From contig NZ_CP101987.1 in the NCBI RefSeq assembly GCF_024508315.1, positions 1,550,001 through 1,614,000 on the forward strand: a stretch of DNA of 64,000 bases. Direction: 5' to 3'. This stretch comes from Cellulomonas xiejunii. GTDB taxonomy: Bacteria; Actinomycetota; Actinomycetes; Actinomycetales; Cellulomonadaceae. A program made the translations under genes and the position numbers. The notes under the pieces were generated by a model. The model had not been told where the DNA came from. It worked only from the letters and a program-made list of their open reading frames with translations, and did not search any database. Within the stretch, counting starts at the first letter, position 1. Each line of letters starts with the position of its first letter. This document shows, piece after piece, positions 36,909-49,661 of this stretch.

Positions 36909-37265
36909 GTGCGGGCGAAGGACGCGGTCGGACGGTACGGGGAGGACGTGGCGGCGGCGTTCGTCACGCAGGCGGGCTGGACGGTGCTCGCCCGCAACTG
37001 GCGGTGCCCCGAGGGGGAGCTCGACATCGTGGCCCTCGACGGCGACGAGGTCGTCGCGGTCGAGGTCAAGACGCGGCGCTCGACGGCCTACGGGCACCCC
37101 GCCGAGGCGGTCACGTACCGCAAGCTGGCACGACTACGACGACTGACGGCCCGGTGGCTGAGTGAGCACGACGTGCGCGCCCGTTCGGTGCGGGTCGACG
37201 TCATCGCGGTGCTCGTGCAGCGCCGGGGCGCTGCGCAGGTCGAGCACCTCGTCGGGGTGGTCTGA
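36909..37265 (+). CDS. yraN: YraN/UPF0102 endonuclease-fold protein
   Basis: 118 aa from GTG 36909, with GGAGGT 7 nt upstream; the in-frame GTG at 36891 has no ribosome site. The motif GELDIVALDGDEVVAVEVKTRR carries the D-(E/x)K residues of a Holliday-junction-resolvase-like fold. YraN lies next to comM and dprA across bacteria. Role not established; possibly linked to DNA uptake or recombination. Its stop is immediately followed by the comM GTG. Confidence 0.9.
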   Translation: MRAKDAVGRYGEDVAAAFVTQAGWTVLARNWRCPEGELDIVALDGDEVVAVEVKTRRSTAYGHPAEAVTYRKLARLRRLTARWLSEHDVRARSVRVDVIAVLVQRRGAAQVEHLVGVV

Positions 37266-38188
37266 GTGCTCGGGCGCACGCGTGCCGTCGCGCTGGTGGG
37301 GCTCGTCGGGCACCTCGTGGACGTGGAGTCCCACCTGGCCCCGTCCCTGCCCGCCTTCACGCTCGTCGGCCTGCCCGACGCCTCGCTGGCCGAGGCGCGG
37401 GACCGGGTACGGGCCGCGGTGACGTCGTCCGGGCTCGCCTGGCCGACACGACGCATCACGGTCAACCTGTCTCCGGCGACCCTGCCCAAGACCGGGTCGT
37501 CGTTCGACCTGGCGGTCGCCGTCGCGACGCTGGCGGGCGCCGGCCTGGTCGAGGTCGCGTCCGTGGCCGGGTGGGTCCACCTCGGGGAGCTGGGTCTGGA
37601 CGGCCGTCTGCGGCCGGTGCGCGGCGTGCTGCCGTCCGTGGCGGCCGCCGTCGCGGCGGGGCACCCTCGGGTCGTGGTGCCGCGGGGCAACCTCGAGGAG
37701 GCGCGCCTGGTGCCCGGCGCGCAGGTCCTCGCCGCGGACAGCCTCGCGCAGGTGGCCGCGCACCACGGTGCCGACGTCGAGGTGCTCGACGTCGAGCCCG
37801 TGCGGGACGTCGTCTGCGTCGTCCCCGCACGCCGCGAGCCCGACCTCGGTGACGTCCTCGGCCAGGACGAGGCGCGGTACGGCCTGGAGGTGGCGGCGGC
37901 CGGGGGTCACCACCTCCTCATGGTCGGTCCCCCGGGCGCGGGCAAGACGATGCTCGCGGCGCGGCTCCCGGGACTGCTGCCGGACCTCGACGAGGCCGAC
38001 GCCGTGGAGGTCACCGCCGTGCACTCGGTCGCGGGCACGTTCGATCCGGGAGGCGGGCTGGTACGCCGACCCCCGTTCGAGGACCCGCACCACACCGCCA
38101 CGCCGGCGAGCATCGTCGGTGGCGGCTCGGGCCTGCCGCGGCCGGGTGCGGCGTCCCGCGCCCACCGCGGGGTCCTGTTCCTCGACGA
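37266..38188 (+). pseudogene. comM: comM (YifB), 5' fragment interrupted by the integrative element
   Basis: Begins GTG 37266 directly after yraN. Encodes the Lon-protease-like N-terminal domain and the start of the Mg-chelatase AAA core with Walker A VGPPGAGKTM (around residue 222). Sequence matching the family ends at LFLD (38184-38186), where ComM continues EAPEF. The rest of the gene is at 47856-48450 in the same frame once 38189-47855 is removed. In the current state the frame runs on to a stop at 38330, adding 47 unrelated residues. ComM is a helicase-like AAA protein that assists branch migration in natural transformation. Confidence 0.92.
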
Positions 38189-38190
38189 CT
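38184..38190. other. attL junction
   Basis: GACGACT: the GA of the comM Glu codon at 38187-38188 is the last base pair shared with attR. Chromosomal sequence is to the left. It meets element sequence CTCCAACTATC to the right. Confidence 0.8.
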
Positions 38191-38203
38191 CCAACTATCA
38201 TCT

Positions 38204-38240
38204 TGCACTCCCGAGGCCGCCCGATCGAGCTGCACTCCCG
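38204..38240 (+). repeat. 10-bp direct repeat pair near attL
   Basis: TGCACTCCCG occurs at 38204-38213 and 38231-38240, 27 bp apart. They lie within 55 bp of the junction and could be recombinase or directionality-factor sites. Also GCCCGATCG at 38219-38227 has an inverted partner CGATCGGGC at 47842-47850 near attR. Confidence 0.5.
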
Positions 38241-38347
38241 TCCGTGAGGTGTCGGGACCCAAGGACCCGCCTAGCTTCCGGTCGGCATTCCGGTGCCCGA
38301 GTTGCCGGTCAACCGTCCGTCGGCCGCTAGAGCACCCCGCCCGCGAC

Positions 38348-38353
38348 TAGGTT
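38348..38353 (+). promoter_or_regulatory. -10 element of a putative leaderless cargo transcript
   Basis: TAGGTT ends 6 nt before ATG 38360, and no ribosome site precedes that ATG. Confidence 0.45.
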
Positions 38354-38359
38354 CCAGTC

Positions 38360-39145
38360 ATGGAGTCCTCCGAGCAGCGCTTCCTGCATGAGATCCGGTC
38401 GACGTACGCCGATCTTGAGCGGTGGAGGGTGCGCGCATCCTCGGTGGAGGAGCCGGAGCGGGGCAGCGAGCTCGCGGTTGATGACCACGTGTTCCCGCGT
38501 CACCGCATCAGCAGTGTGGCATGGCTCTCGTTGGCGTTGGCAGGTGAGCACCTTCGTCTCGCTCGGGACGCCATTGAAGCTCAGCAGCTGTATCCGAGTG
38601 CTCACTTCTCGGTGCTGCGGAGTGCGCTCGTCGGCGCTGCGCAAGGGGTCTGGATCCTCGGCCCAGACCATGGGGCACAACGCCAAGAGCGTGGGCTGAT
38701 CGTCCTCGCCGAGATGCACGAGCAGATGCGCAAGTACTACAACCGGCTGTCTGACTTCGCGCTGAGCGACCAGGAGCGCACCGAGCTCGTTGCACAGCAG
38801 GAGTGGCTGGCGCAGCGAGTCGAGGAAGTAGCAAGGGCCAGGACCGGGCGGCAGAAGCTCGAACTGACCACCACGGTCATCCCAGAGGCGCTAGATCTCG
38901 TATTCCCCGACAGCGAGCGTCGACAGCAGGGGCGTGCTCTGTGGTACGAGATGAGTGGCGACGCTCATGTACTCGGTTGGTCCACGATTCCGAGGGGATC
39001 GGTCATCGCGGCCGACCGGCTATCAGGTCTAGCGACGCACGTAGTGGGTGGTTCGCTTGACCAGATCTCTCAGCCCTTCATTGCGTCCTACAAGATGCTC
39101 CGCGTCGGGTGGAGTCTGTATGACCGTCGATGTGAGGGCCGGTAG
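38360..39145 (+). CDS. Uncharacterised cargo protein, all-helical
   Basis: 261 aa from ATG 38360. I do not recognise the family. It looks mostly helical, with a central paired-helix region (LALAGEHLRLARDAIEA, then VLRSALVGAAQGVWILG) and an amphipathic charged helix (residues ~115-165). A pattern WYEMSGDAHVLGW near residue 200 recalls helical DUF5677-like or HEPN-like proteins, but no RxxxxH HEPN site is evident. GC is lower than the chromosome by eye. A leaderless promoter precedes it. Position beside attL and next to a GHKL ATPase suggests accessory cargo. Confidence 0.75.
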   Translation: MESSEQRFLHEIRSTYADLERWRVRASSVEEPERGSELAVDDHVFPRHRISSVAWLSLALAGEHLRLARDAIEAQQLYPSAHFSVLRSALVGAAQGVWILGPDHGAQRQERGLIVLAEMHEQMRKYYNRLSDFALSDQERTELVAQQEWLAQRVEEVARARTGRQKLELTTTVIPEALDLVFPDSERRQQGRALWYEMSGDAHVLGWSTIPRGSVIAADRLSGLATHVVGGSLDQISQPFIASYKMLRVGWSLYDRRCEGR

Positions 39146-39293
39146 GCAGTCAGCAGCTCCGAAGGAGTCATGCACAGTCTTCGGCCGACAGTGCCCAGCG
39201 CGGGGCCGTGTTACAGCAGCGCTCGTCTCCTAGGCGTCGGCGGTCCGAATCTGGTTGGGGCGGCGGCGCGCCGGGCCCAGACGGTGGGCACGG

Positions 39294-39737
39294 CTAGGGG
39301 GCGGAACTCTGGGCAGGCGGCGGAATATGGCCGGGAGGCTCTGTGGTGGTGAGTCCGATGTAAAGCGTCGCGCCGATGGCCAGCGCAGAAACCACGACAG
39401 CGGCCCAGGTGGCGCGGGCTGCGGCCCGCGCGGCCCTTGCGCTTGCCCCGGTGAGGCGTTCCATGACCAAGAGGCTGATCGCCTCCCGGATGCGGGCCTC
39501 GTCGTCGTGGGCTTCCCGACGCGCGCTCCTCACCAGATCGTGGGCTTCGAGGGATTCCTTGATCCAGTCAAGTCTCATGCGCATGTCTTTAGGGCTCGCC
39601 GGGTCAGCGGTCGCCTGTAGTTCCTCGGCGAACTTATATGTCCGCTCAGCGGAGGCGCGCTCCTCCCCGTCGATCCCCTCACGCTTCGCTACCACGACCC
39701 TTAGGCGCTCCCGAAGCTCGCGCTCGTCGTCGCTCAT
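39294..39737 (-). CDS. Tail-anchored membrane protein with charged coiled-coil body
   Basis: 147 aa from ATG 39737, where AGGGAG lies upstream; ATG 39752 is also in frame but lacks a fitting ribosome site. The first ~110 residues are Glu/Arg/Ala-rich and helical (DERELRERLRVVVAKREG; HDDEARIREAISLLV). A single hydrophobic segment (AAVVVSALAIGATLYIGL) lies near the C-terminus, followed by a Pro-rich tail. This tail-anchored layout is common in membrane-targeting effectors of phage defence. It is transcribed towards the 38360-39145 gene and lies divergently from the GHKL gene. No family recognised. Confidence 0.65.
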   Translation of the reverse strand: MSDDERELRERLRVVVAKREGIDGEERASAERTYKFAEELQATADPASPKDMRMRLDWIKESLEAHDLVRSARREAHDDEARIREAISLLVMERLTGASARAARAAARATWAAVVVSALAIGATLYIGLTTTEPPGHIPPPAQSSAP

Positions 39738-39977
39738 GCTCTCCCTACCCATGTCGGAGAGTGTGGCGCAAGCGCGACGTCGAGACTAGGCAGCATCTGC
39801 GCGAGCGCCCACGGTCAGGACGCCGTTGACCGGGCGGCGGCAGGAGCGCCGTTCGCGAGCGCGGGGCAGGGCAAGTGCTGCGGACGACCGCGCTTGCTCA
39901 AGATGGAGCGGGAGTCTGGCCCGCGAGCTGGACCCGGGCGGTACGCTCGGCATCAGTAGCGACGAGAGGACCTGTGG
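39738..39977. other. Divergent intergenic region of cargo genes
   Basis: A 240-bp region between the tail-anchored and GHKL genes. TACGCT (39942-39947) could be a -10 for the GHKL gene, with no good -35. I see no ORF or repeat that I would support. Confidence 0.4.
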
Positions 39978-41975
39978 ATGTCTGAGCTTCCGGTCAGTTT
40001 CGACCCCTTAGAGTTCCGGCCAACTGGGCCGAATGAGATGTCGGCACACGCCCGGAACATCGTCAAGAACGTTCTGGACAGCTACACGGGACGATTCGAC
40101 GTCTTGGCGGAAGCGGTTCAGAACGCGATGGACGCGATCGAGGCACGTTGGGGTGCAGGCGTAGATAACGCGGCCGGGCGTCGTGATGGGGAATACCCGA
40201 CGATCCGCATTGAGATCGACGCGTCCGCAAGGAACGAGATAACGGTCACCGATAATGGCGTCGGTATAGCCGGTGACAAGCTGCAGGAGGTTTTTACGCC
40301 TCACCTTAGCCCGAAGCTGCTCTATGGAAGGCCGACCCGAGGACACAAGGGTGTTGGAACTACATTTCTAATCTACGGGCATCCGGCCTTCGAGGTGCGG
40401 ACGAAGACGACTTCTGGCGAGGTGCACGCCTATCGAATCCAGGGCGGGTCCGAATGGGTGCAGGGCGAGACTATTCTGCCTGCACCAAAGTTCGAAAGGG
40501 TCGAGGACGCAGGGCGGCGGCTCGAAAACTTCGGCTCCGGGACAAGCATTACGGTTAAGGTCGACGAGAGCACGCGCTTTGGTCGAGTGCGCAACGCTCA
40601 ATACAACAAGCTCGAGACGTGGGAGCTTGTTCTTCGAACATTCACCGCTATCGGCATTGTGAACGTCGGCATTGCTGACCATCGGCGCCCGGAGTGGGTT
40701 CGAGAGCTGCGTGTCGAACTTGAGCTTTTGGGTGTCTCTGGTGGCGGGACATGCACTGTCGTCCCGAAGTTTCATTTCCCTCACTCGGATGCTGCCACGA
40801 GCGTGAGCCTATCGGAGTTGTGGTCCGGTTCGGTGAGCGACAGTAATCGCTACGAAATGCTCTACCTCGAGCTTGGGCCTGACGCCCTCGAGCAGCAACT
40901 AAAAGCACAGATTGAAGAACTCGAAAACAGTGACTCGGCGGAGGATCAGGAAACCCTCCAGACCCTAAGAAAGTACGAGACCTCGGTTTATGCCAGCTGG
41001 GCATACAAGAACACGCTCTATGAGGACCTTTATCGGGGCGCACTCGAAGAGCCATCGGCGAAGCGTTTCCAGTACATGAACGTGCGCGGGGGGCTAATGG
41101 TGGCCTCCGTGGGAATGCCGATCGGCGAGACGACGGACCATCCTTACGCGACTATGAAGCCTGAGTATCGCAGGCGCCTCTTCATGATCGCGTCCTTCAA
41201 TGGGAAGTATTCGCCGGACTTGGGCCGGAAGACCATCCCCGCTCAGGATCGCGCCTTCCTGGAGTGGCTCGAGCGCCAGATCCAGAACCTGTTCCTTCGC
41301 TATATTGGCAGGCTGGTCCGGTCCAACGACGAGGCGCCCCATCATGCCGGTGGATTCGCTCAAGCGAAAGAGGAGCTCGCGAGCGAAGGCGACAGGGTTC
41401 GCAAGCGTACTGAGAAGCTGCAGGCCATGTCCGAGCCACTCGGTTTTGCATACGAGCCGCGATACGAAGCCGAGTTGGTGGGGATCTTCTACGCGCTGCT
41501 TGCGTCGGGAGATCTCCGGGGCTACCGACTTCTCGCCGTGCCGGGTAGCACAACGCGCCTCGACGGCTACTTTGATTTCGAGGCATCACAGTTCGCCAAG
41601 CCCACTCCGGATGACCTGGCTCCGCTCGGAATCGCCGAGAGCAAGGCGACCGGTGGCGCGTTCCAGCGCCGGGGTAAGTGGCTGGAGTTCAAGGTGCGCC
41701 TGGACGACCTTATCGATGACTTCGAGGCTGAAGACGCCACAGGGAGTAAGAAATACTTCGATCTAGTCGACCTGGTTGTGGCCTGGGAAGTGCCTGCCGG
41801 AGAGTCCATCGGCGACTATGACTTGGTCGAGTTGAAGGAGGGCAACTGGAACGAGCGCGATTATTACGGCGCGACGCACCTCCTCAGGAAGAGCGGTGGG
41901 AACCACGTCGTCCAGGTTCTGGCCCTTCAAGACTTCATTCGTCGCATGCAGTCGGTGGCGCCAGCGACCGCGTAG
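39978..41975 (+). CDS. GHKL (Hsp90-like) ATPase with C-terminal nuclease-like motif; candidate defence protein
   Basis: 665 aa, ATG 39978 with GAGAGGA 7 nt upstream. The GHKL ATP-binding motifs are present: N box LAEAVQNAMDAIE (residues 43-55, Glu45/Asn49), G1 DNGVGI (92-97) and G2 GHKGVG (122-127). A middle region of beta strands and helices follows, with a coiled-coil-like acidic stretch (residues ~305-335). Near the C-terminus, LDGYFDF (Asp529, Asp533) followed by GIAESKA (Glu554, Lys556) has the D...ExK spacing of PD-(D/E)XK nucleases. Proteins with Hsp90-like ATPase plus nuclease are common in phage defence. Function is inferred; the gene is visibly lower in GC than the rest of the window. 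Confidence 0.85.
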   Translation: MSELPVSFDPLEFRPTGPNEMSAHARNIVKNVLDSYTGRFDVLAEAVQNAMDAIEARWGAGVDNAAGRRDGEYPTIRIEIDASARNEITVTDNGVGIAGDKLQEVFTPHLSPKLLYGRPTRGHKGVGTTFLIYGHPAFEVRTKTTSGEVHAYRIQGGSEWVQGETILPAPKFERVEDAGRRLENFGSGTSITVKVDESTRFGRVRNAQYNKLETWELVLRTFTAIGIVNVGIADHRRPEWVRELRVELELLGVSGGGTCTVVPKFHFPHSDAATSVSLSELWSGSVSDSNRYEMLYLELGPDALEQQLKAQIEELENSDSAEDQETLQTLRKYETSVYASWAYKNTLYEDLYRGALEEPSAKRFQYMNVRGGLMVASVGMPIGETTDHPYATMKPEYRRRLFMIASFNGKYSPDLGRKTIPAQDRAFLEWLERQIQNLFLRYIGRLVRSNDEAPHHAGGFAQAKEELASEGDRVRKRTEKLQAMSEPLGFAYEPRYEAELVGIFYALLASGDLRGYRLLAVPGSTTRLDGYFDFEASQFAKPTPDDLAPLGIAESKATGGAFQRRGKWLEFKVRLDDLIDDFEAEDATGSKKYFDLVDLVVAWEVPAGESIGDYDLVELKEGNWNERDYYGATHLLRKSGGNHVVQVLALQDFIRRMQSVAPATA

Positions 41976-42236
41976 TCTTGAGGATTGCCATAGCTGCGGC
42001 GTTTGTTGCGGCGATATTGCAATGCGGGAGCTTTGCGAACCTCCCGCGCAAGTCGGAGCGACCGCGCGAGCTATCGCGGAACCTAGGAGGCTGCCCCGGT
42101 AGTGCATTGAGCCCCACTCGAGTGCCTACCCCTGGGGGGCTGACCCCTTTGGGTTGATGTCGCGCACCGCCATGTCTTAGCTGCGCGCTGTACGCCGAAA
42201 ATGGGGAGGTCCTCAAACCGGTGCGGCAGAACGCAG
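41976..42236. other. Intergenic region between cargo and replication halves of the element
   Basis: About 260 bp without a supported ORF. It marks the change from lower-GC cargo to high-GC replication/integration genes. It holds several short inverted repeats, none striking. Confidence 0.5.
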
Positions 42237-42281
42237 AAAAGGGCCCCTAGCCTGCGGCTTTGAGTCGCAAGCTAGGGGCCC
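42237..42281 (-). terminator. Rho-independent terminator of the element's - strand operon
   Basis: GGGCCCCTAGC (42241-42251) pairs with GCTAGGGGCCC (42271-42281). On the - strand the stem is followed by TTTT (42237-42240). It lies 30 bp after the stop of the HNH-like gene (42311). One of the few T-tract terminators in the window. Confidence 0.88.
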
Positions 42282-42310
42282 TCAGTAAGCCCTCGCGGGC
42301 AGGATGTTGC

Positions 42311-42868
42311 TCAGTCGCGACAACCGTGGGCTCGGTCGTGGGCGGTGTGGCATGGCTCGCAGAGTGGCAGATAGTCCGCCGGGCGGTCGCTGTAGACGAG
42401 ACCGGCGCCCTTCCTGCCCTGTTCGCCGTACAGCGCACGCGCGTCGCGACGGTGTGAGTAGGCCCAGTGTTGCGCGGGCTCGCCGCAGTCCTCGCATGGG
42501 TGCTGCCTGGGGCGACCGCGCGCGGCGCGTACGCGATCGTGAGCGCCGCCGTAGGACAGGCCCAACGGGTTTCGACCCCCGGCGCCCGGGTGCGCAACGC
42601 GGTTGCCGCAGGTCCGGGCCCGCCCGCTGGTGACGTTGGTCAGCCACATCTCCGACGTCGCGCCGCAGTCGCAGAGCACGCGAACCCGGGAGTGCCCCCT
42701 CACCTTGCCAAGACGCTCGACGAGCACGAGAGAGCCGAACCGGGCACCGACGGCGTACCTGTGCGCCCGACTGCTCTCGCTGGGGTTGCTTGGGACCAGA
42801 CGCGTGCCCGCAGCCCGCCCCGAGCTCGACTCCGTGCCCCTGCACCGCTGGGCGGGGTCGCTCAACAT
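42311..42868 (-). CDS. HNH-like zinc protein
   Basis: 185 aa from ATG 42868, with GGAGG 8 nt upstream. Two zinc-binding clusters are seen: CDCGATSEMWLTNVTSGRARTC (first) and CEDCGEPAQHWAYSHRRD (second), followed by YLPLCEPCHTAHDRAHG. The pattern C-x2-C...C-x2-C-H with a central His is that of small HNH-type proteins often seen in actinophages and integrative elements. Not a large homing enzyme; could be a free-standing HNH nuclease or DNA-processing factor. Last gene before the operon terminator. Confidence 0.75.
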   Translation of the reverse strand: MLSDPAQRCRGTESSSGRAAGTRLVPSNPSESSRAHRYAVGARFGSLVLVERLGKVRGHSRVRVLCDCGATSEMWLTNVTSGRARTCGNRVAHPGAGGRNPLGLSYGGAHDRVRAARGRPRQHPCEDCGEPAQHWAYSHRRDARALYGEQGRKGAGLVYSDRPADYLPLCEPCHTAHDRAHGCRD

Positions 42869-42870
42869 CG

Positions 42871-43224
42871 TCAGCGCCTCCGCTCACTGTCAGGCCGTCG
42901 GGGACGGCGTCGCGACCGGCGTGGCCAAGCGTGCAGGTCTTCGGCGGTCGGCCGCTCCTTGCGCGCCAGCGAGCGCAGCCCTTGCACCTCGCGCGCCACA
43001 TCGTCGGACCTGTCGTGCAGCTCGTCCGCCTGGCGGCGCATGCGGTCCTCTGCCCGCGCTCGTTGGTCGGCGAACTGGTGCACCCGGCGCCGGAAGTCCG
43101 TCACGGCTGCACGGTGCTCCCGAGAGCAGAAGGCTGCCCCCTTGGAGGTGGGTGCATCGCAGAGCGCGCACGTCCCGCCCATCGTCGCGGCCCCCCTCTG
43201 TGTCTGTGCCCCCTCCGCGCTCAC
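42871..43224 (-). CDS. Small zinc-finger/coiled-coil protein
   Basis: 117 aa. GTG 43224 overlaps the stop of the upstream gene (GTGA), so the pair is coupled. GGTCALCDAPTSKGAAFCSREHR is a treble-clef-like C-x2-C...C-x3-H cluster, followed by a long Arg/Glu-rich helix (residues ~40-95). A second possible start is the internal ATG at residue 15. Family not recognised; the N-terminal cluster followed by a helix suggests a DNA- or RNA-binding accessory. Confidence 0.65.
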   Translation of the reverse strand: MSAEGAQTQRGAATMGGTCALCDAPTSKGAAFCSREHRAAVTDFRRRVHQFADQRARAEDRMRRQADELHDRSDDVAREVQGLRSLARKERPTAEDLHAWPRRSRRRPRRPDSERRR

Positions 43225-43976
43225 AGGTCCGCCACCCCCGTTGCCGCCTTCTCAGCCGCGCGGCTTCCAAGGAACGCAGCCCACGAGGGCAGGGCGCCCG
43301 CGTCCTGGTCTTCCCGCTCGGCGCGACGCACCGCCTGCAGCCCGTCGGAACGGATCATCCAGCCTGCCGCCGCCGCCGCCTCACCGAGGGTCTTCCAGAG
43401 GACGTCCTCGGTCGTCGGCGCCTCCACGCGCCGACCGTCAAGGGTGAGCGCCTGTCGCCCCAACCCGCGCGCCGTCAGCTGTACCGGCTCGGTCCGGTAG
43501 AGGTTGACGTCTTGGGCCGCGCGCAGCGCTCCCGCAACGGCCTGCCGCTGCCCCTCGGCGATGATGGCGAGGGTGCCCAGCGCCTGCGCGATGTCGTCCA
43601 CCGCCTGGCGCCGTGCCTCCGTGAGCGCGCTGTCGTCCACGATGGGCGCAAGGGCAGCCGCGAGGTCGTTCGCGAGGGCCACCCGCTCGGCCCCCTGCGC
43701 CCGGCTTAGCGCCACGGCGGCGCCGTCTGCCAGCAGGGTTGCGTGCTCGACAGCCGCCGTCGCCTGAGCGAGGGCCGTCACGGTCACGTCCTCACCCTGT
43801 GCGACACGCTCGCGGATCTCATCCAGTGCAGCGCGCGCGTCGTTCAGCGCACGTTGCGCGGCAGCGTGCCGGTCCTGTGCTGCGAGGCGCTGCGTCGTCG
43901 CGGTGGGCCCGGCAGGGCCGCTCTCCGTGGTGCGCGCGCTTTCGGTCCTGGTGGTCGTGCTCTTGGCGGTAGCCAT
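43221..43976 (-). CDS. Coiled-coil protein of the element
   Basis: 251 aa from ATG 43976 (MATAKSTTTRTE), with GAGAGGA upstream. The Ala/Glu/Arg-rich central part (residues ~30-150) is predicted helical coiled coil, and the C-terminus ends AFLGSRAAEKAATG. No catalytic motif or membrane segment is visible. It is the first gene after a 580-bp non-coding region and is coupled to the next gene. Function unknown; such proteins are common in integrative elements. Confidence 0.7.
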   Translation of the reverse strand: MATAKSTTTRTESARTTESGPAGPTATTQRLAAQDRHAAAQRALNDARAALDEIRERVAQGEDVTVTALAQATAAVEHATLLADGAAVALSRAQGAERVALANDLAAALAPIVDDSALTEARRQAVDDIAQALGTLAIIAEGQRQAVAGALRAAQDVNLYRTEPVQLTARGLGRQALTLDGRRVEAPTTEDVLWKTLGEAAAAAGWMIRSDGLQAVRRAEREDQDAGALPSWAAFLGSRAAEKAATGVADL

Positions 43977-44051
43977 CGTGGGCTGTCCTCTCGGTTGCGG
44001 GACGCGGACGCGTCCCTATGACGCGCGTCGGCGTTGCTCGACGCGGATACA

Positions 44052-44070
44052 CCGAGGCGCGGGGCCTCGG
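44052..44070 (+). terminator. Terminator-like hairpin
   Basis: CCGAGGC (44052-44058) pairs with GCCTCGG (44064-44070) and is followed on the + strand by a T-rich run (CTTTGTGTTCCTT). No + strand gene ends here, so the role is uncertain. Confidence 0.4.
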
Positions 44071-44180
44071 CTTTGTGTTCCTTGAAGGGGCTGGGGATGG
44101 GTCGTGCCACCCCGAGTGCTCATGCCGGTGACGCGGCGTGCGTCCTCGGAGCCCTTCGGAGCAGTGAGCTCCCGAGGCTT

Positions 44181-44229
44181 GGCACGGCGTGCGGTGCGCC
44201 AGCGCACGGCACGGCGTGCGGTGCGCCAG
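44181..44229 (+). repeat. 22-bp tandem direct repeat
   Basis: GGCACGGCGTGCGGTGCGCCAG occurs at 44181-44202 and 44208-44229 (period 27), overlapping small inverted repeats. Non-coding. Confidence 0.75.
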
Positions 44230-44557
44230 GGCATGGCATCGAAGGTCCGGGGAGGGGTTGCCCGAGGCGCCGTGTGCACCTCTGCGGCCCTCTCGAGCCC
44301 GTCCCCTCACCCTGGAGCGGCGGGGCCCTTGCGAGGGCCCTGCGGGGCGCCAGGGCGCCCGCACGCGGTTCGTGTCGCAGCTCTGGTAGCGGCCACGCGC
44401 TGGCGCCCTGTGGCGCCCGGCGGCGCAGCGGCGAAGGCACCACCGGGATTGCGTCCGCCCTGCGCTCAGGCCGTCGGCGGTTGGCGATGGGCGGGCCGCG
44501 CCAGCGGCCCCAGGCCTAGAGCGTTGCTCGCGGTGGGCCCGGAGGGCCCCGCAAGCC

Positions 44558-45202
44558 CTACGTCAGGAACACCGGCAGGATCTCGTCTGCCAGCCTGTCG
44601 ACCTCCGCACGCGCCGCTGCTTCTGCCTCCGCCGCTGCGGCTGCGGCTGCCCAGGCCGCTGCCCCCCGTACCTCTGTAGCGCATTGCTCTATAGAGGTAG
44701 AGCCAGAGCCAGTAGTAGAGCCTGCGTTATACGGCTCTGGTGGCGTACTAGGGGTCGCATCTCCTCGGCGCTCCCGGCCCCCACCTAGTGCGCCATCTGC
44801 GACAGGGGCCGCACCTAGTGCGCCATCTGCGACAAGGGCGAGGGCCCCTAGTGCGCCATCGGCGGCACCTTGCACGGTGGGCACCGACGGGGGGCCTAGT
44901 GCGCCATCTGCGACAGGCAGGCTCAGGCGGTAGTGCTTCGGCCCGCGCATCGGCGCGTGCACGAGCGTCAGCCAGCCTGCAGCTGCGAGCGCCACCATGT
45001 GCCGGTTCACCGTGCGTACCCCGGCGCCGATCTCGCGCGCGATGCGAGCTTGTGAGGGTCGGACCTGTCGACCGTCCTCGCCTGCGTAGGTCGAGAGCGC
45101 GAGAGCGACCGCGACCCATGAGCCGGGCAGCACGCCAGCTGCGACAGCGCCCAGCACGGCGCGCTGCCACTCGTGCCGCCCGGCCGGCATTGGGTCAGCC
45201 AT
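44558..45202 (-). CDS. Winged-helix replication-initiator candidate with intragenic iterons
   Basis: 214 aa from ATG 45202 (AAGGCG upstream). Residues ~12-92 form a winged-helix domain (SQARIAREIGAGVRTVNRHMVALAAAGWLTL, then a wing ending HYRLSL). Four copies of (V/A)ADGALG follow at residues ~97-140; at DNA level they are 23-bp repeats (44784-44917). A poorly conserved Ala-rich region ends the protein. DNA-binding domain, then iterons inside the same gene, then a C-terminal region resembles phage lambda O, whose origin lies within the O gene. Replication function is inferred. It is coupled to the upstream gene (8-bp overlap). Confidence 0.7.
   Translation of the reverse strand: MADPMPAGRHEWQRAVLGAVAAGVLPGSWVAVALALSTYAGEDGRQVRPSQARIAREIGAGVRTVNRHMVALAAAGWLTLVHAPMRGPKHYRLSLPVADGALGPPSVPTVQGAADGALGALALVADGALGAAPVADGALGGGRERRGDATPSTPPEPYNAGSTTGSGSTSIEQCATEVRGAAAWAAAAAAAEAEAAARAEVDRLADEILPVFLT
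44669..44740. repeat. Two inverted repeats in a relatively AT-richer patch beside the iterons
   Basis: TACCTCT (44669-44675) pairs with AGAGGTA (44693-44699) and CCAGAGCC (44703-44710) pairs with GGCTCTGG (44733-44740). This patch includes CTCTATAGAG and GTTATAC and is visibly less GC-rich than its surroundings. It may correspond to the DNA-unwinding part of an origin. It is within the initiator coding sequence. Confidence 0.5.
44784..44917. repeat. Four iteron-like 23-bp repeats (candidate replication origin)
   Basis: CCTAGTGCGCCATCTGCGAC-AGG type units start at 44784, 44814, 44847 and 44895. The first and fourth are identical, the second has one mismatch and the third keeps the first 14 bases. 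Spacings (30, 33, 48 bp) are multiples of 3, as they encode the repeat (V/A)ADGALG. They lie directly downstream, in reading direction, of the wHTH domain. Confidence 0.75.
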
Positions 45203-45668
45203 CGCCTTCCCCCTCGTCGTCAGAGTGAGCGGCGCCGAACGCCGCTGCGAGCGCCAGCCCGCTGGGCTCCGGACCCGGGGGCGGCGGGTCCATCCGCACG
45301 TGTTGGTGCGCGATGCCCCACGCCTCGGGCACGCCCAGCGCCTCAAGCGCGGCGGGCACGACGAGGGACACCCGCCCACCGGCCTGGGCCCCGTTGGCGA
45401 TTCGCCCGGCGTCCTCCAGGTCTGCGAGCGCGTCGAGAACCTGAGCATGCGTCAGGCCCGTGTGCCGCGAGATCCGCTCGACGTTCAGCCGCACGGCTGG
45501 CATGTCCGCGAGGACGAGCGCCAGCACGACATCAGCAGGGGTCGCGCGAGGCTGGGGGGATCGTCTCCACACCGAGCCCGTGCCGATGCTCGCCCGGCGC
45601 AGCGCGAACCGCTGTGCGTCGAGCCAGCCGGACAGCGTCGGCGCGAGTGCGTCGCTGCGCCCGCTCAT
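45195..45668 (-). CDS. HTH protein upstream of the initiator candidate
   Basis: 157 aa. ATG 45668 overlaps the upstream stop (ATGA) and the 3' end overlaps the initiator gene by 8 bp, a tightly coupled operon. A helix-turn-helix is seen in VRLNVERISRHTGLTHAQVLDALADLEDAGRI (residues ~52-85), followed by a short beta wing and an acidic Pro-rich tail. Likely a DNA-binding regulator or replication accessory; no known family. Confidence 0.65.
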   Translation of the reverse strand: MSGRSDALAPTLSGWLDAQRFALRRASIGTGSVWRRSPQPRATPADVVLALVLADMPAVRLNVERISRHTGLTHAQVLDALADLEDAGRIANGAQAGGRVSLVVPAALEALGVPEAWGIAHQHVRMDPPPPGPEPSGLALAAAFGAAHSDDEGEGDG

Positions 45669-45895
45669 GCAGCACCGCCGGGCACGACGGCGGCGCCATC
45701 TTCGTACGCAAGGACGTCGGCCAGCCGGTAGCGGACAGCGCCGCTCCCCGAGAGCTTGAGGTAGGACGCACCGCGCCCCTGGGATCGCTGGTTGGCGAGC
45801 GTGCCAGGGCTGAGGCGCCATCGTGCCGCTAGCTCGCGCTCCGTGAGCAGGCTGTGCCAGGGGTCGGGGCTGGGCGCCGAGTTCTCTACGGCCAT
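45665..45895 (-). CDS. AlpA/Xis-like helix-turn-helix protein
   Basis: 76 aa from ATG 45895, where CAGGAG lies 7 nt upstream. LLTERELAARWRLSPGTLANQRSQGRG plus VRYRLADVLAYED has the MerR-like HTH layout of excisionases and AlpA-type regulators. It lies directly downstream of the integrase, the usual place for a recombination directionality factor. It could also regulate the element's operon. First gene of the tightly coupled - strand run to 44558. Confidence 0.75.
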   Translation of the reverse strand: MAVENSAPSPDPWHSLLTERELAARWRLSPGTLANQRSQGRGASYLKLSGSGAVRYRLADVLAYEDGAAVVPGGAA

Positions 45896-45923
45896 GGTGG
45901 TGTGCTCCTGTCTGGAACGCCGA

Positions 45924-45970
45924 ACGGCCCCGGTCCGGACCCTCGGGGGAGGCGTCCAGACCAGGGCCGT
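45924..45970. terminator. Hairpin between integrase and Xis-like gene
   Basis: A 17-bp imperfect stem (45924-45940 with 45954-45970; two G-U pairs). It lies 28 bp upstream of the Xis-like start, with no T tract. It could separate integrase and operon transcripts. Confidence 0.45.
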
Positions 45971-46156
45971 CCGGCTCTGTGGTTGCTGTGGGGTGACGGG
46001 GCCCGTTCCTCTGGGCTCTGATCCGCCGTCATGGGCGACGACTGCGGGGGACATGTCTCACGTTGCCGGGTGGGTCGGGCACGAGTTCTCATGCCCTCCC
46101 ACCTGATAGAGACGGCCCAAGTCGCGATCTTGTGCGTCAGGCAGCAGTGATCTCGG
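45971..46156. other. Intergenic region between integrase and Xis-like gene
   Basis: About 186 bp with no supported ORF. It should hold the - strand operon promoter, but I cannot pick it with confidence. Confidence 0.45.
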
Positions 46157-47824
46157 TCACACCACGTCGGAGGACACTACGGGGACGGCGTCGGGCCCGG
46201 TCAGATGTTCACCGAACAGGTGCGAGGCCCAATCTGCGAGGGCACTAGCTGAGGACGGGAGCGGCATGGGCTCGGCGCTCTGGTCCGCGTCGACCTCGCC
46301 GGGCAGGCGGAAGGCGACGCGCAGTCGCGATGCGACGTCCTGTCCCCGCTTGCCCGTCCCTCGCTCGACGTAGAAGCGCACACCGGACGCTCGCAGGATC
46401 GCGTTTCGGGCGGCGTCGTCGCCCGCAGCCTGCCAACGGTCAGCGAGGGTCTCGCCGGTCTCCTCCTCCCGCCACCCTGACGGGATCCGCTCCTGCGCCA
46501 TCAGCTCCTCGCGGCGGCGCTCCAGCTCGGAATAGGTCGCGCGGAACTCCGCGAGTCCGGCGGTGGTCGAGTACATGCCAGCTGCGCGGTCCTCGCGCAT
46601 CTGCGCCAGCGCCTCCGTGATCTCGGCGACACGAGCCGCGACGTCGTTGCCCTGGACCCAGACGCGCCGAGTCACCGGCTTGTGCCCCCAGTCGCCCAGG
46701 ATCGCGCGAGTGACGACGTCGTCAACGTCGGCACACGGAAGGACGCCGTTGGTGCACAACTGGGAGCCCTGGCGGGCTCGGGATCCACAGCGGTAATACT
46801 TCTGCCCCCTCCCGCCGTTGACTCGGTACATCGGTTCGTCGCGCCCCTCGGTCGCACACTCCCAGCACCAGAGCACGCGCAGGAGTAGCGCGCGGTCGAG
46901 ACGCGCCCCCGGCTGACGGCCGGAGCCCTTGCGGTTCTCGCTCAGGATGGCCCGAATCTCGTCAAGCTCCGAGCGCGTCAGGATCGCCTCTGCACGCTGC
47001 ACGGGCAGGCCGTCGGCGCCGCGCACTACGTACTCACGGCGACCGCCGTCGGGCTGCGTCTCCTCGCGCACCATCTGGCCCAGCATCCGATCGGACGTCA
47101 TCACCCGCATCAGGTTGCCGGTCCGCCACTCGCCACGGCCCGAAGGCGTCGGCACGCCGTGCCGGTTCAGATCCGCGCAGATGCCGTTAGCGCTCTCGCC
47201 CCCACGGATGCGATCTGCCAGCGCCCGCACGAGCGCCGCAGCGTCCGGGTCTACGGCCAAGCGCTTATGCCCGTCCTCGCCGGTGGCCACGCGGTAGCCG
47301 AACGGGGGCGTGCCGCCCCGCCAGCGCCCTTCACGCGAGAGCTTGTCGAAGGAGGAGCGGGCCCGCGCCACCATGCGCTCGCGCTCGCCCTGCGCCAGTC
47401 CACCCAGCACGGCAACCGTGATGGCACCCGCCGGACCTGTGTACTCCGTTCCCTGGGTGTCGAACACCGGGCGCCCCTCTGCGCGGGCCCAGTCGATCAC
47501 TGCAAGTAGGTCCGCCGCCCGGCGACTCAGCCGGTCGAGGTTCCACGTGACCAAGGCGTCCCACTCTCCGGCGCGGCAAGCCGCGAGCGCAGCCCGCTTC
47601 TCGGCGGGTGACGCGTCTCGGTTGGCGAGAGTGCGGGGGAGGTACTGGCCCAGGTCCGGACGCGCCCACGGGGCGACGTCGCCTGAGACATCCTCGTCGA
47701 TGGCCCAGGCGGTGATCTCGTGCCCTGTGAGCGCTGCCCACCGCTCGACGGCCTCGCGCTGGCGCTCTATCGACGTTGACGCGGCGTCAGTGCGGCTGAG
47801 TCGGAGGACCCCAAGGATTCGCAT
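46157..47824 (-). CDS. int: Large serine recombinase (integrase)
   Basis: 555 aa from ATG 47824. An upstream extension to 47860 would run through the attachment core into comM and is rejected. The N-terminal resolvase domain has catalytic Ser10 (GVLRLSRTD), and WNLDRLSRRAADLLAVIDWA and GGLAQGERERMVARA follow. A recombinase DNA-binding domain (FGYRVATGEDGHKRL, GICADLNRHGVPTPSG) and a zinc ribbon with CWECATEG (from residue ~320) and YRCGSRARQGSQLC come next, then a coiled-coil region with YSELERRREELMAQ. This is the layout of phiC31/Bxb1-type integrases, which catalyse insertion between attP and attB. It lies next to attR. Confidence 0.95.
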   Translation of the reverse strand: MRILGVLRLSRTDAASTSIERQREAVERWAALTGHEITAWAIDEDVSGDVAPWARPDLGQYLPRTLANRDASPAEKRAALAACRAGEWDALVTWNLDRLSRRAADLLAVIDWARAEGRPVFDTQGTEYTGPAGAITVAVLGGLAQGERERMVARARSSFDKLSREGRWRGGTPPFGYRVATGEDGHKRLAVDPDAAALVRALADRIRGGESANGICADLNRHGVPTPSGRGEWRTGNLMRVMTSDRMLGQMVREETQPDGGRREYVVRGADGLPVQRAEAILTRSELDEIRAILSENRKGSGRQPGARLDRALLLRVLWCWECATEGRDEPMYRVNGGRGQKYYRCGSRARQGSQLCTNGVLPCADVDDVVTRAILGDWGHKPVTRRVWVQGNDVAARVAEITEALAQMREDRAAGMYSTTAGLAEFRATYSELERRREELMAQERIPSGWREEETGETLADRWQAAGDDAARNAILRASGVRFYVERGTGKRGQDVASRLRVAFRLPGEVDADQSAEPMPLPSSASALADWASHLFGEHLTGPDAVPVVSSDVV

Positions 47825-47832
47825 GGTTGGGG

Positions 47833-47838
47833 AGTCTA
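47833..47838 (-). promoter_or_regulatory. -10 of the integrase promoter; -35 falls across the attachment core
   Basis: TAGACT on the - strand, 8 nt before the integrase ATG (near-leaderless). A 17-bp spacer reaches exactly to the GA core. In the integrated state the -35 hexamer (47856-47861 reversed) reads GGTGCC; in the excised circle it would be TTGGAG (38189-38194 reversed). Confidence 0.5.
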
Positions 47839-47851
47839 TAGCGATCGGGCG

Positions 47852-47857
47852 ATGAGG
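47852..47857. other. attR junction
   Basis: The GA shared with attL is at 47854-47855; comM sequence resumes at 47856 (GGCACCGGAG). Confidence 0.8.
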
Positions 47858-48450
47858 CACCGGAGTTCACGTCGGCCGTGCTGCAGACGTTGCGGCAGCC
47901 GCTCGAGCACGGTGAGCTCGTGCTGCACCGTGCCGCCGGCACCGCGCGGTACCCCGCGCGCTTCCAGCTGGTCCTCGCGGCCAACCCCTGCCCGTGCGGG
48001 CACGCGGTCGGCAAGGGCCTGGCCTGCACCTGCCGGCCCGAGCAGCGCCGACGGTACTTCGGCAAGCTGTCCGGGCCCCTGCTGGACCGGGTGGACCTCC
48101 AGCTCGAGGTCCCCGCGGCCCGTGCCGCGGATGTGGCGGGTGAGGACACCGCCACGGTCGCGCGTCGGGTGGTGACGGCGCGCGCGGCGCAGCAGGACCG
48201 CTGGCGCGGGACGGGGTGGCGGACGAACGCCGAGGTCCCGGGCCGTGCGCTGCACGCGCGTCTCGGCGCGGACCGCCCGCTCGTCGCGGACCTCGAGCGG
48301 GCCGTCGACCGTGGGACCTTGAGCCTGCGGGGCGCCGACCGTGTCCTGCGCGTGGCCTGGACCGTCGCCGACCTCGCAGGCCGTGCCGCGCCCCACCGCC
48401 ACGACGTCGCGCACGCCCTGGTGCTCCGGACCCGGGGGCACGGGGCATGA
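47856..48450 (+). pseudogene. comM: comM (YifB), 3' fragment
   Basis: Continues comM with EAPEFTSAVLQTLRQPLEHGE and then the AAA core arginine-finger part (RFQLVLAANPCPCGHAVGKG, LSGPLLDRVDLQLEVPA) and C-terminal helical domain. It has no start of its own. Added to the 5' part it makes about 505 codons, the normal YifB length. The stop overlaps the start of dprA (ATGA), as in the uninterrupted yraN-comM-dprA arrangement. The gene is thus functional only if the element excises. Confidence 0.92.
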
Positions 48451-49661
48451 GCGGGACGTCCGCGTCCGAGGGGCCCCGTGACCACGCCGGGTCCGACAGC
48501 GACCGCCGCGCGCGGGCGGTCTGGAGCGCGTTGGCCGAACCCGGCGACGCCGTCGCCGGGGCGCTGGTCCAGACGTGCGGTGCCGCGGCTGCCCTGGCAT
48601 GGGTCACGAGCGCCGCGGACACCGACCGGCCGGACTGGTCGGGGCTCGAGCGATCGGCCGGTGAGCTGGACGAGTCGCTGCGGCGACGTGTCGACGTCGG
48701 CGTCCGCAGGTGGGCGGCACGGTGGCGGTCGCTGGACCCCGAGCGCGACCGTGCTGCCGCGCAGCGGTCCGGGGCACGTCTCGTGGTCCCCGGCGATCCC
48801 GCCTGGCCGGGCGGCCTGGACGACCTGGGGGCGCTCGCACCGTTCGCGCTGTGGGTGCGCGGCGCCCCGCCGACCGCGTCCCGGTCCGTGGCGCTCGTGG
48901 GGGCGCGGGCCAGCACGAGCTACGGGGAGCGGGTGACGGTCGACCTCGCCGTGGAGCTGGCGCGCCGCGGCTGGGTCGTCGTCTCCGGCGGCGCCTACGG
49001 CATCGACGCCGCAGCCCACCGCGGTGCGCTCACGGGTGGTGGTGCGACGCACGTCGTGCTGGCCGGGGGAGTCGACCGCGCGTACCCCGTCGGCAACGCC
49101 GCCCTGCTCGAGGAGGTGGTGCGCGCCGGCGGGAGCCTGATCAGTGAGGTGCCACCCGGGTCGACGCCCACCCGGGGCCGCTTCCTGCAACGGAACCGGC
49201 TCATCGCGGCGGTCTCCCACGCGACGGTGGTCGTCGAGGCGGCGTGGCGCTCGGGCGCGGCGAGCACGGCGCACCACGCGGCGCGGCTCCTGCGACCGGT
49301 CGGGGCAGTCCCCGGGCCTGTCACGTCCGCTGCCTCGGCGGGCTGCCATCGGCTCCTGCGCGACGGGGTGGCGGTGTGCGTCACGGACGCGGACGAGGTC
49401 GTCGAGCTCGCGGGGAACGTGGGTGCGGACCTCACGCCCGTGCCCACCGGCACCGACGTCCGTCCGACCGACGGGCTCGACCCGGTGGCGCGTCGAGTGC
49501 ACGACGGCCTGTCGCGGCGTACGGCGCGTGACGCGGAGCAGATCGCCGCGCGCGCCGGGACGACGCCCGCGCAGGCCCGTGCGATGCTCGGGCTGCTCGA
49601 GCTCGACGGCCTCGCGCGAAGGGTCGCGTCCGGTTGGGTGGTGTCAGACGCGCAGGAGTAG
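48447..49661 (+). CDS. dprA: DNA-processing protein DprA
   Basis: 404 aa, ATG overlapping the comM stop. The Rossmann-like core has SVALVGARASTSYGERVTVDLAVELARRGWVVVSGGAYGIDAAAHRGAL and TRGRFLQRNRLIAAVSHATVVVEA, with a C-terminal winged helix (ARDAEQIAARAGTTPAQARAMLGLLELDGLARRVASGWVV). DprA loads RecA on incoming single-stranded DNA during transformation. With yraN and comM it forms a DNA-uptake gene set; upstream operon transcription is now interrupted by the element. Confidence 0.95.
   Translation: MSGTSASEGPRDHAGSDSDRRARAVWSALAEPGDAVAGALVQTCGAAAALAWVTSAADTDRPDWSGLERSAGELDESLRRRVDVGVRRWAARWRSLDPERDRAAAQRSGARLVVPGDPAWPGGLDDLGALAPFALWVRGAPPTASRSVALVGARASTSYGERVTVDLAVELARRGWVVVSGGAYGIDAAAHRGALTGGGATHVVLAGGVDRAYPVGNAALLEEVVRAGGSLISEVPPGSTPTRGRFLQRNRLIAAVSHATVVVEAAWRSGAASTAHHAARLLRPVGAVPGPVTSAASAGCHRLLRDGVAVCVTDADEVVELAGNVGADLTPVPTGTDVRPTDGLDPVARRVHDGLSRRTARDAEQIAARAGTTPAQARAMLGLLELDGLARRVASGWVVSDAQE

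Follow-up and report, generated by a model that had tools for sequence, protein, structure and literature searches.

The 64-kb stretch of Cellulomonas xiejunii DNA analysed here (the window; positions 1,550,001-1,614,000 of a 4.19-Mb genome in a single contig) contains an integrative element of 9.67 kb, at positions 38189-47855, which cuts comM inside the segment LFLDEAPEF. The insertion is real and its boundaries are exact, because the two parts of comM rejoin in frame, relatives carry an intact comM, the rebuilt empty site matches theirs and the attP site is symmetric about a GA core. The element encodes a large serine integrase and a replication initiator with a putative in-gene origin, and we consider it to be probably a satellite-type element resembling the phage-inducible chromosomal islands (PICIs) and carrying defence cargo. 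The interrupted gene, the junctions and the following gene lie as follows:

37266..38188, + strand: 5' part of comM, residues 1-307, ending LFLD, outside the element; PF01078 (positions 1-113) and PF13541, frame joining that of the 3' part.
38187..38188, + strand: core dinucleotide GA of attL, the element beginning at 38189; from the junction comparison and the empty sites of six relatives.
47854..47855, + strand: core dinucleotide GA of attR, 47855 being the last base of the element; from the junction comparison and attP symmetry.
47857..48450, + strand: 3' part of comM, from APEF to the stop, overlapping the start of dprA; PF01078 (positions 116-205) and PF13335.
48447-49658: dprA, intact; PF02481.

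In-silico removal of 38189-47855 gives a continuous comM frame of 505 codons, in which GVLFLD is joined directly to EAPEF, and the two halves match complementary parts of the 207 positions of PF01078 (Mg_chelatase/ComM), together with ChlI and Mg_chelatase_C. The precise, in-frame restoration of about 505 codons claimed in the initial annotation is thereby borne out for the joined sequence, with excision itself standing as a prediction. Intact comM genes align over residues 1-505, within 505-codon frames, in four close relatives (G060, 98%; G010, 96%; G003, 96%; G018, 91%) and over residues 2-505 in a fifth (G033, 94%), and the joined gene used as query finds a comM match in 199 of the 200 genomes of the family. 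The initial annotation had proposed a search of relatives for an intact comM and had also listed such genes among the results that would speak against the insertion; an intact comM is instead what an insertion predicts, and it was found. Over 120 bases, the rebuilt empty site shares 113 identities with the nearest relative and 107, 109, 103, 107 and 102 with five others, and GACGAGGC is identical in all six.

The left junction reads CTCGACGA followed by CTCC, and the right junction reads GGGCGATGA followed by GGCACC. The unbroken core common to both is GA, and the next base outward differs (C/T), with CGA again common beyond it; strand exchange is therefore placed at GA 38187-38188 / 47854-47855. 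Read outward from this GA, the arms of the rebuilt attP agree in 13 of 25 positions, among them an ACTCCC at +19 to +24 on both sides, and only 0.48% of 63,800 window centres equal this symmetry in both match count and longest run. Over 22 positions there are 11 matches at GA, compared with 2 to 8 at 16 neighbouring centres. The element has a G+C content of 68.0%, and its 10-kb flanks have 73.5% and 73.3%. A tRNA-linked island was ruled out, since the 64-kb window contains no tRNA and positions 37000-49000 match no Rfam family.

The 5' fragment of comM stops inside what we take to be the Walker B segment, LFLD(EAPEF), and lacks everything downstream of that point, so ComM should be inactive in this genome. 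The ATG of dprA overlaps the comM stop codon, and the insertion parts dprA from the upstream section of its operon. The gene comEC is present in the same genome.

The element itself is organised as follows:

38360..39145, + strand: ORF1 (open reading frame 1), 261 aa; 53% identity to L056:10799-11617, with relatives next to Gabija in G506 and next to a Type ISP restriction enzyme in G400.
39294..39752, - strand: ORF2, at most 152 aa, with no family in four libraries; its sequence gives the impression of a membrane segment.
39978..41975, + strand: GHKL ATPase (HATPase_c), 665 aa; PF02518 (6.1e-8) and PF13589 (2.1e-6).
42240..42282, no strand: hairpin with 20-nt arms that are 90% complementary and a 3-nt gap, where the left arm and the core module converge; a probable terminator.
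42311..42868, - strand: HNH-type protein; phrog_22195 (3.3e-24), with related proteins in both Isoptericola comM elements (42%, 35%).
42871..43182, - strand: small Cys-rich protein, 103 aa from its likely start; no Pfam family (best 0.091), weak match to LmuB in PADLOC (0.002).
43221..43976, - strand: coiled-coil (helical hairpin) protein, 251 aa; N-terminal pattern like that of proteins of two Isoptericola elements.
44558..45202, - strand: replication initiator, winged-helix HTH_36/lambda-O-like, 214 aa; PF13730 (7.2e-5, under the curated cut-off), phrog_270 (8.5e-7) and phrog_391 (2.3e-6).
44672..44731, no strand: lowest-GC 60-mer of 42300-47855 (50%), next to the iterons; putative unwinding element.
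44776..44916, no strand: four iterons, consensus TGTCGCAGATGGCGCACTAGG, in the initiator gene; putative origin.
45195..45668, - strand: winged-helix protein, 157 aa, its frame overlapping its neighbours; DprA_WH-like (4.2e-4, under the cut-off).
45665..45895, - strand: Xis/MerR-like HTH_17 protein, 76 aa, a candidate recombination directionality factor; PF12728 (5.3e-4, under the cut-off), weak matches to the excisionase families phrog_66 and phrog_7735.
46157..47824, - strand: large serine integrase, 555 aa; PF00239 (Resolvase), PF07508 (Recombinase), PF13408 (zinc ribbon) and phrog_95 (5.5e-90).

The protein at the right end has all the features of a large serine integrase, with resolvase, recombinase and zinc-ribbon domains and a conserved serine; Ser10 and a DRxSRR stretch, which we take to be meaningful motifs of such enzymes, are conserved in the alignment with its relatives. 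Its best relative of solved structure is 9iu2 (E 3.6e-80), a 500-aa protein that its record calls Integrase and that is presumably the Bxb1 enzyme. The start was placed at 47824 (MRILG...) and not at GTG 47860, since the protein then lines up with its relatives and the gene does not reach into attR. The site likewise has each of the features of serine integrase sites, namely a 2-bp common core, a symmetric attP and an empty attB in relatives. Junction comparison, attP symmetry and domain content thus agree with the earlier observation that the junctions share just GA and that a serine integrase lies at the right end.

Integrase relatives occur in two of the 81 genomes of the genus (E ≤ 1e-20), one being this genome and the other having a 31% identical protein, and in 718 of 50,697 phage records as against 5 of 72,556 plasmid records, the phage set being rich in mycobacteriophages. 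Genome contigs and viral contigs gave no match to the single integrase query; with an alignment of three integrases as query, 44 loci were obtained in genome contigs and 24 in viral contigs, and comM lies within 100 bp of the integrase in four of the former and in none of the latter. The four are Isoptericola sp. QY 916 (L064), I. sediminis JC619 (L067), Paractinoplanes pyxinae (L065) and Actinomadura oligospora (L105), the comM of the last being merely a 62-residue match at a contig end. The first three have the closest integrases found (40-41% identity); no comM match flanks the fourth-closest, from Streptomyces harbinensis (38%).

All three of these closest relatives split comM between residue 307 and the next codons. 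Both Isoptericola elements are inverted relative to the present one, so that the integrase adjoins the comM 5' half, and the core of the I. sediminis element cannot be placed more finely because both of its ends have CTCGACGAGGC in common. The Paractinoplanes element is about 9.7 kb long, and its products include a prohead protease (phrog_80, 5.5e-42; PF04586, 4.4e-41), an HK97 major capsid protein (phrog_10, 3.1e-31; PF05065, 1.8e-26), an HNH endonuclease and a DUF2637 protein. Its protease and capsid genes stand just before the HNH gene, in the place that the coiled-coil and Cys-rich genes occupy here. The satellite reading draws indirect support from the fact that integrase relatives carry capsid genes both at the same comM codons (L065) and elsewhere (L068).

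The top-ranked integrase matches in phage records lie among twelve Mycolicibacterium phage records of 10.9-11.1 kb. Two of the twelve were examined by annotation: both carry a short terminase gene, an adaptor, a stopper, a capsid and a tape measure gene, and in neither is a portal or a second terminase gene annotated. We infer that these records of about 11 kb represent packaged satellites. A satellite-like element was also seen in Micromonospora sp. ATA32 (L068:10001-18811), with capsid (phrog_10, 6.3e-34) and HNH genes and a 34% identical integrase relative; this integrase lies directly at the end of a gene that we take to be yebC, which is probably a further attachment gene.

The replication-initiator candidate named in the initial annotation is borne out by PHROGs families, in-gene iterons and a low-GC stretch. 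PHROGs assigns the protein to two replication initiation families, of which phrog_391 is O-like. The four iterons, one of which diverges at more positions, have start spacings of 30, 33 and 48 and share the same codon phase, and the cluster is unique in the window when three or more copies of a 21-mer (18/21 or better) within 160 bp are sought. The low-GC 60-mer also lies inside the initiator gene. In phage lambda the origin is situated inside the O gene and consists of iterons and an A+T-rich stretch, and the initiator gene here carries a putative origin of the same layout. As far as the sequence goes, the element therefore has an initiator and an origin of its own, recognised by the initiator family and the in-gene iterons. 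A gap of 0.6 kb with repeats separates the initiator gene from the coiled-coil gene.

The initiator matches proteins of the Paractinoplanes element (43% over 72 aa, 9.8e-9), of a Micromonospora locus (L069; 39% over 66 aa, 2.9e-6), of the comM element of G531 (1.9e-5) and of the Mycolicibacterium phage ChrisB1 (28.8% over 73 aa, 7e-4); tblastn in phages gave no match at 0.01. Repeat arrays in or beside the helix-turn-helix (HTH) initiator gene are present in three of the five relatives' regions examined, with six copies of 14 nt within the ChrisB1 gene, three copies of 19 nt within the G531 gene and three copies of 23 nt adjoining the HTH match in the Micromonospora locus. The ChrisB1 array (L007:5254-5376) is itself a putative origin that lacks annotation in its record.

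No terminase, portal, capsid, tail, relaxase or TraB/FtsK family was matched at a meaningful score by the ten element proteins in Pfam, PHROGs and NCBIfam, the sub-threshold matches being T4_tail_cap to ORF1 (0.059) and TraC to the coiled-coil protein (0.083), in agreement with the initial annotation, which saw no structural or transfer genes. An ordinary prophage was rejected on these grounds, no head or tail gene being recognised, as was an actinomycete integrative and conjugative element, no FtsK/TraB-like translocase being matched; a transposon was rejected since the ten proteins include no transposase family and the ends have just a short core in common. Neither a full phage gene set nor the capsid and maturation protease that characterise capsid-forming PICIs (cfPICIs) were found in Pfam and PHROGs, and no packaging or capsid-redirecting gene was recognised there, the coiled-coil and Cys-rich proteins having no family. 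The coiled-coil gene was considered as a replacement for the capsid gene and set aside, this idea being supported just by its position near the HNH gene, with no capsid match in PHROGs. Its product aligns at 20-30% with its Isoptericola counterparts, but the BLAST link is absent at 1e-3, and the gene has no match in viral contigs. Its predicted fold has a mean predicted local distance difference test score (pLDDT) of 48.5 and is confident only around helices 23-59 and 66-113; that of the GHKL protein, made without an alignment, has a mean pLDDT of 35.

The left arm, which includes the GHKL ATPase and ORF1, is probably exchangeable anti-phage defence cargo, judging from the neighbourhoods of related genes. 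The kilobases that hold the GHKL gene have a G+C content of 57.7 and 60.5%, compared with 67-73% in the remaining kilobases, and this difference of about 10 points from most of the element suggests that the gene was acquired separately. A GHKL relative on a Rhizobium plasmid (tblastn, 26% over 98%) stands beside cytosine methylase, Vsr and DUF2357-PD-(D/E)XK genes, and the neighbours of a partial relative in Halobacterium are all hypothetical; phage records contain no relative. A nuclease-like domain at the end of the GHKL protein is an impression from motifs, which no search bore out. ORF1 has relatives in 9 of the 396 genomes of the order (E ≤ 1e-10, this genome included). One (53%) lies directly upstream of Gabija in G506, one (45%) adjoins the Type ISP restriction enzyme in G400 and, in G059, one of four genomic neighbourhoods that were gene-called, a DUF2971 gene is about 2 kb away; the G192 and G170 neighbourhoods show no clear defence gene on reading alone, and three plasmid neighbourhoods show none by annotation. 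No PADLOC model matches ORF1, and the GHKL protein has a weak match to TmtA (6e-4).

Known defence genes are present in three other comM insertions at the LFLDEAPEF codons. That of I. sediminis has an Eco29kI-type restriction enzyme together with a cytosine methylase and Vsr, that of G434 an Eco57I-type methylase, and that of G506 the Gabija pair GajA/GajB. In the G506 insertion (L056:10799-19604), the ORF1 homologue stands before this pair and a 1239-aa protein that matches nothing in Pfam or PADLOC stands after it; no integrase was recognised.

The initial annotation had suggested a satellite-like island. The relative at the same comM codons and the capsid or terminase genes found with members of the integrase and initiator families speak for this indirectly, and helper-dependent packaging of the element itself is a proposal. 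Several observations weigh against a satellite with defence cargo. Pfam and PHROGs reveal neither a terminase small subunit nor a capsid or other head protein among the ten proteins, and capsid matches were equally absent from those proteins of the two Isoptericola elements that were scanned; DUF2637, found in the sister elements, is common in actinobacterial integrative plasmids too. The HTH_36 score of the initiator falls below the Pfam cut-off, the Paractinoplanes element lacks a clear iteron array, and it and the I. sediminis region have two-copy repeat families only. The defence role of the left arm is deduced from neighbourhoods, several of which hold no defence gene, and the QY 916 element has no known defence gene among the proteins scanned (three with Pfam, one giving DUF4145; two with PADLOC). 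Among the 396 genomes of the order, this one included, the integrase is rare (4, E ≤ 1e-30), and the GHKL gene (E ≤ 1e-20) and the coiled-coil gene (E ≤ 1e-5) are each found in one. Finally, the genome itself has no match to Phage_portal (PF04860), and therefore no resident helper prophage of that type, so that a helper would probably be external.

The closest competitor, which we regard as unlikely, is an integrative plasmid-like or mobilizable island that uses a phage-type integrase, replicates as a plasmid and spreads by conjugation or transformation. An initiator with iterons fits a plasmid equally well, the left arm looks like a genomic island and no packaging gene is recognised in Pfam or PHROGs, but Pfam and NCBIfam likewise show no relaxase or TraB/FtsK protein with a meaningful score (TraC against the coiled-coil protein stands at 0.083), and the integrase relatives include capsid-bearing elements, one at the same site, and fall into phage far more than plasmid records, with the reservation about mycobacteriophages made above. 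It is more improbable still that the element is what remains of a satellite or prophage after decay, a defence island that has become fixed, lost its structural module, gained the left arm and no longer excises. Such a history would account for the coiled-coil and Cys-rich genes standing where the Paractinoplanes sister has protease and capsid, and G506 retains an insertion at these codons with defence genes and no recognised integrase; however, the integrase, Xis-like and initiator frames are open, the attachment halves are still symmetric about the core, and the two parts of comM are free of decay and fit together in frame. A regulated switch, by which the host would profit from reversible excision that turns on comM and dprA expression, has an analogue in prophage excision from comK in Listeria. 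The exact in-frame restoration of comM and the continued presence of comEC and dprA would suit it, yet the element occurs only in this genome within the 81 genomes searched in the genus and nothing points to regulated excision, so that we give this explanation hardly any weight.

The sequence shows that an element with a large serine integrase gene beside its attachment site integrated by recombination of attP with an attB formed by the comM codons of LFLDEAPEF, the two-base overlap being GA; this cut comM inside the Walker B segment and parted dprA from the upstream comM half. On the satellite reading, the Xis-like HTH_17 protein may then switch the integrase to excision, which would restore comM exactly, and the 9.67-kb circle could be amplified from the lambda-O-like origin inside the initiator gene. 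Movement between cells would take place in helper-phage particles, a step proposed because the element encodes no recognisable capsid, terminase or conjugation gene.

The element is one of several insertions in comM. Re-examination covered twenty genomes in which the comM match was split or weak; 18 of these belong to the survey of 200 family genomes, and comM is split by insertions of 7-15 kb at three sites in at least 8 of the 200. Site A, near residue 83, is occupied in G468 (15.3 kb), G531 (10.6 kb), G088 (9.5 kb) and G434, where the pieces are on two contigs. Site C, the LFLDEAPEF codons, is occupied in G000 (9.7 kb), G410 (12.7 kb) and G577 (12.9 kb), with G434 probably a further case. 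The single comM of G506 is interrupted twice, by 7.0 kb at the Walker A codons and by 12.7 kb at site C, and no integrase is found among the called genes of the former. Outside the family, Walker A is the site of a 10.8-kb insertion in G115 (L062), and comM of G123 is intact. The other ten family genomes comprise six with contiguous or near-contiguous pieces (G494, G528, G470, G249, G547, G562), one with an intact and a partial second copy (G358), two in which comM is fragmented across two contigs or at the end of one (G542, G566), and a last one with a scrambled comM (G393). In this last genome (L060; 2.7 Mb), comM stops after LFLDEA, where about 40 bp of foreign DNA and a short remnant with APEF are found, possibly the scar of a lost element.

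The site-A insertions (L052, L053, L054, L059) encode a distinct clade of serine integrases, 55-92% identical among themselves, and three of the four carry terminase, tape measure or capsid genes: a short terminase (7.3e-17) and a tape measure in G468, a tape measure in G531 (the top PHROG for the tape measures is labelled endolysin and lower ones tape measure) and a capsid in G088 (1.2e-10). The Walker A insertion of G115 has a short terminase (1.2e-8) and a primase/helicase (2.3e-39); in the same PHROG scan of hotspot proteins, three of ten had no match and one, from G434, is a Nudix protein. Several site-A and site-B elements thus appear satellite-like from their gene content. As a control, the adjacent gene dprA has a match in 109 of 111 of these genomes, and complementary pieces on one contig in three (G011, G470, G514; at most 0.14 kb apart), compared with 7 of the 111 with insertion-split comM. 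The other second matches cover a stretch of the query already matched or are on different contigs, and some single matches are partial, so that a dprA gene split with loss of one piece may be among them. As dprA is less conserved, the control is rough.

A broader proposal, which we put forward tentatively and hold to be less likely than the satellite reading itself, is that comM of actinomycetes is a three-site hotspot for satellite-type elements with different serine integrases aimed at conserved codons, that its occupants gain by disabling uptake and bring anti-phage cargo, and that the present element is a capsid-less member with a new GHKL/ORF1 defence module. ComM helps single strands to recombine during transformation, a route that could restore the empty site, and occupants might therefore profit from its loss; that mobile elements block transformation to avoid their own removal is an existing idea. 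The element offers a precisely bounded serine-integrase unit in which the attB/attP core, a putative origin and defence-like cargo are all visible, and a transformation gene is repeatedly occupied by satellite-sized insertions in one family, at three sites and by more than one integrase clade. If this occupation is selected for blocking transformation, the comM insertions would be direct comparative material for elements that guard against removal by recombination, and the comM-site integrases are candidate tools with naturally conserved attB sites.

Among known systems, the element resembles PICIs and cfPICIs in size, in the layout of integrase, Xis-like protein and initiator with origin, in lacking an autonomous structural set and in its accessory defence-like genes, and its Paractinoplanes relative at the same comM codons, like a cfPICI, encodes protease and capsid. 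It differs in having a serine integrase, where tyrosine integrases are the norm for PICIs, and in that no terminase small subunit, capsid or known interference gene is recognised. The Mycolicibacterium aichiense phage records of about 11 kb (ChrisB1, Alyssa1 and relatives) share the integrase family (33%) and genome size, and ChrisB1 also has in-gene iterons, but the two examined carry short terminase, adaptor, stopper, capsid and tape measure genes, none of which is recognised here. The AbaR-type islands of Acinetobacter likewise disrupt comM, although these are Tn7-like transposons with target-site duplication and no serine integrases. The elements of Isoptericola sp. QY 916 and I. sediminis JC619 differ in their opposite orientation and in carrying a DUF2637 module and other cargo in place of GHKL/ORF1; they share the same comM codons, a 40-41% identical integrase, a related HNH-type protein and, in part, the N-terminal pattern of the coiled-coil protein (not significant by BLAST), and that of I. 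sediminis has restriction-modification cargo.

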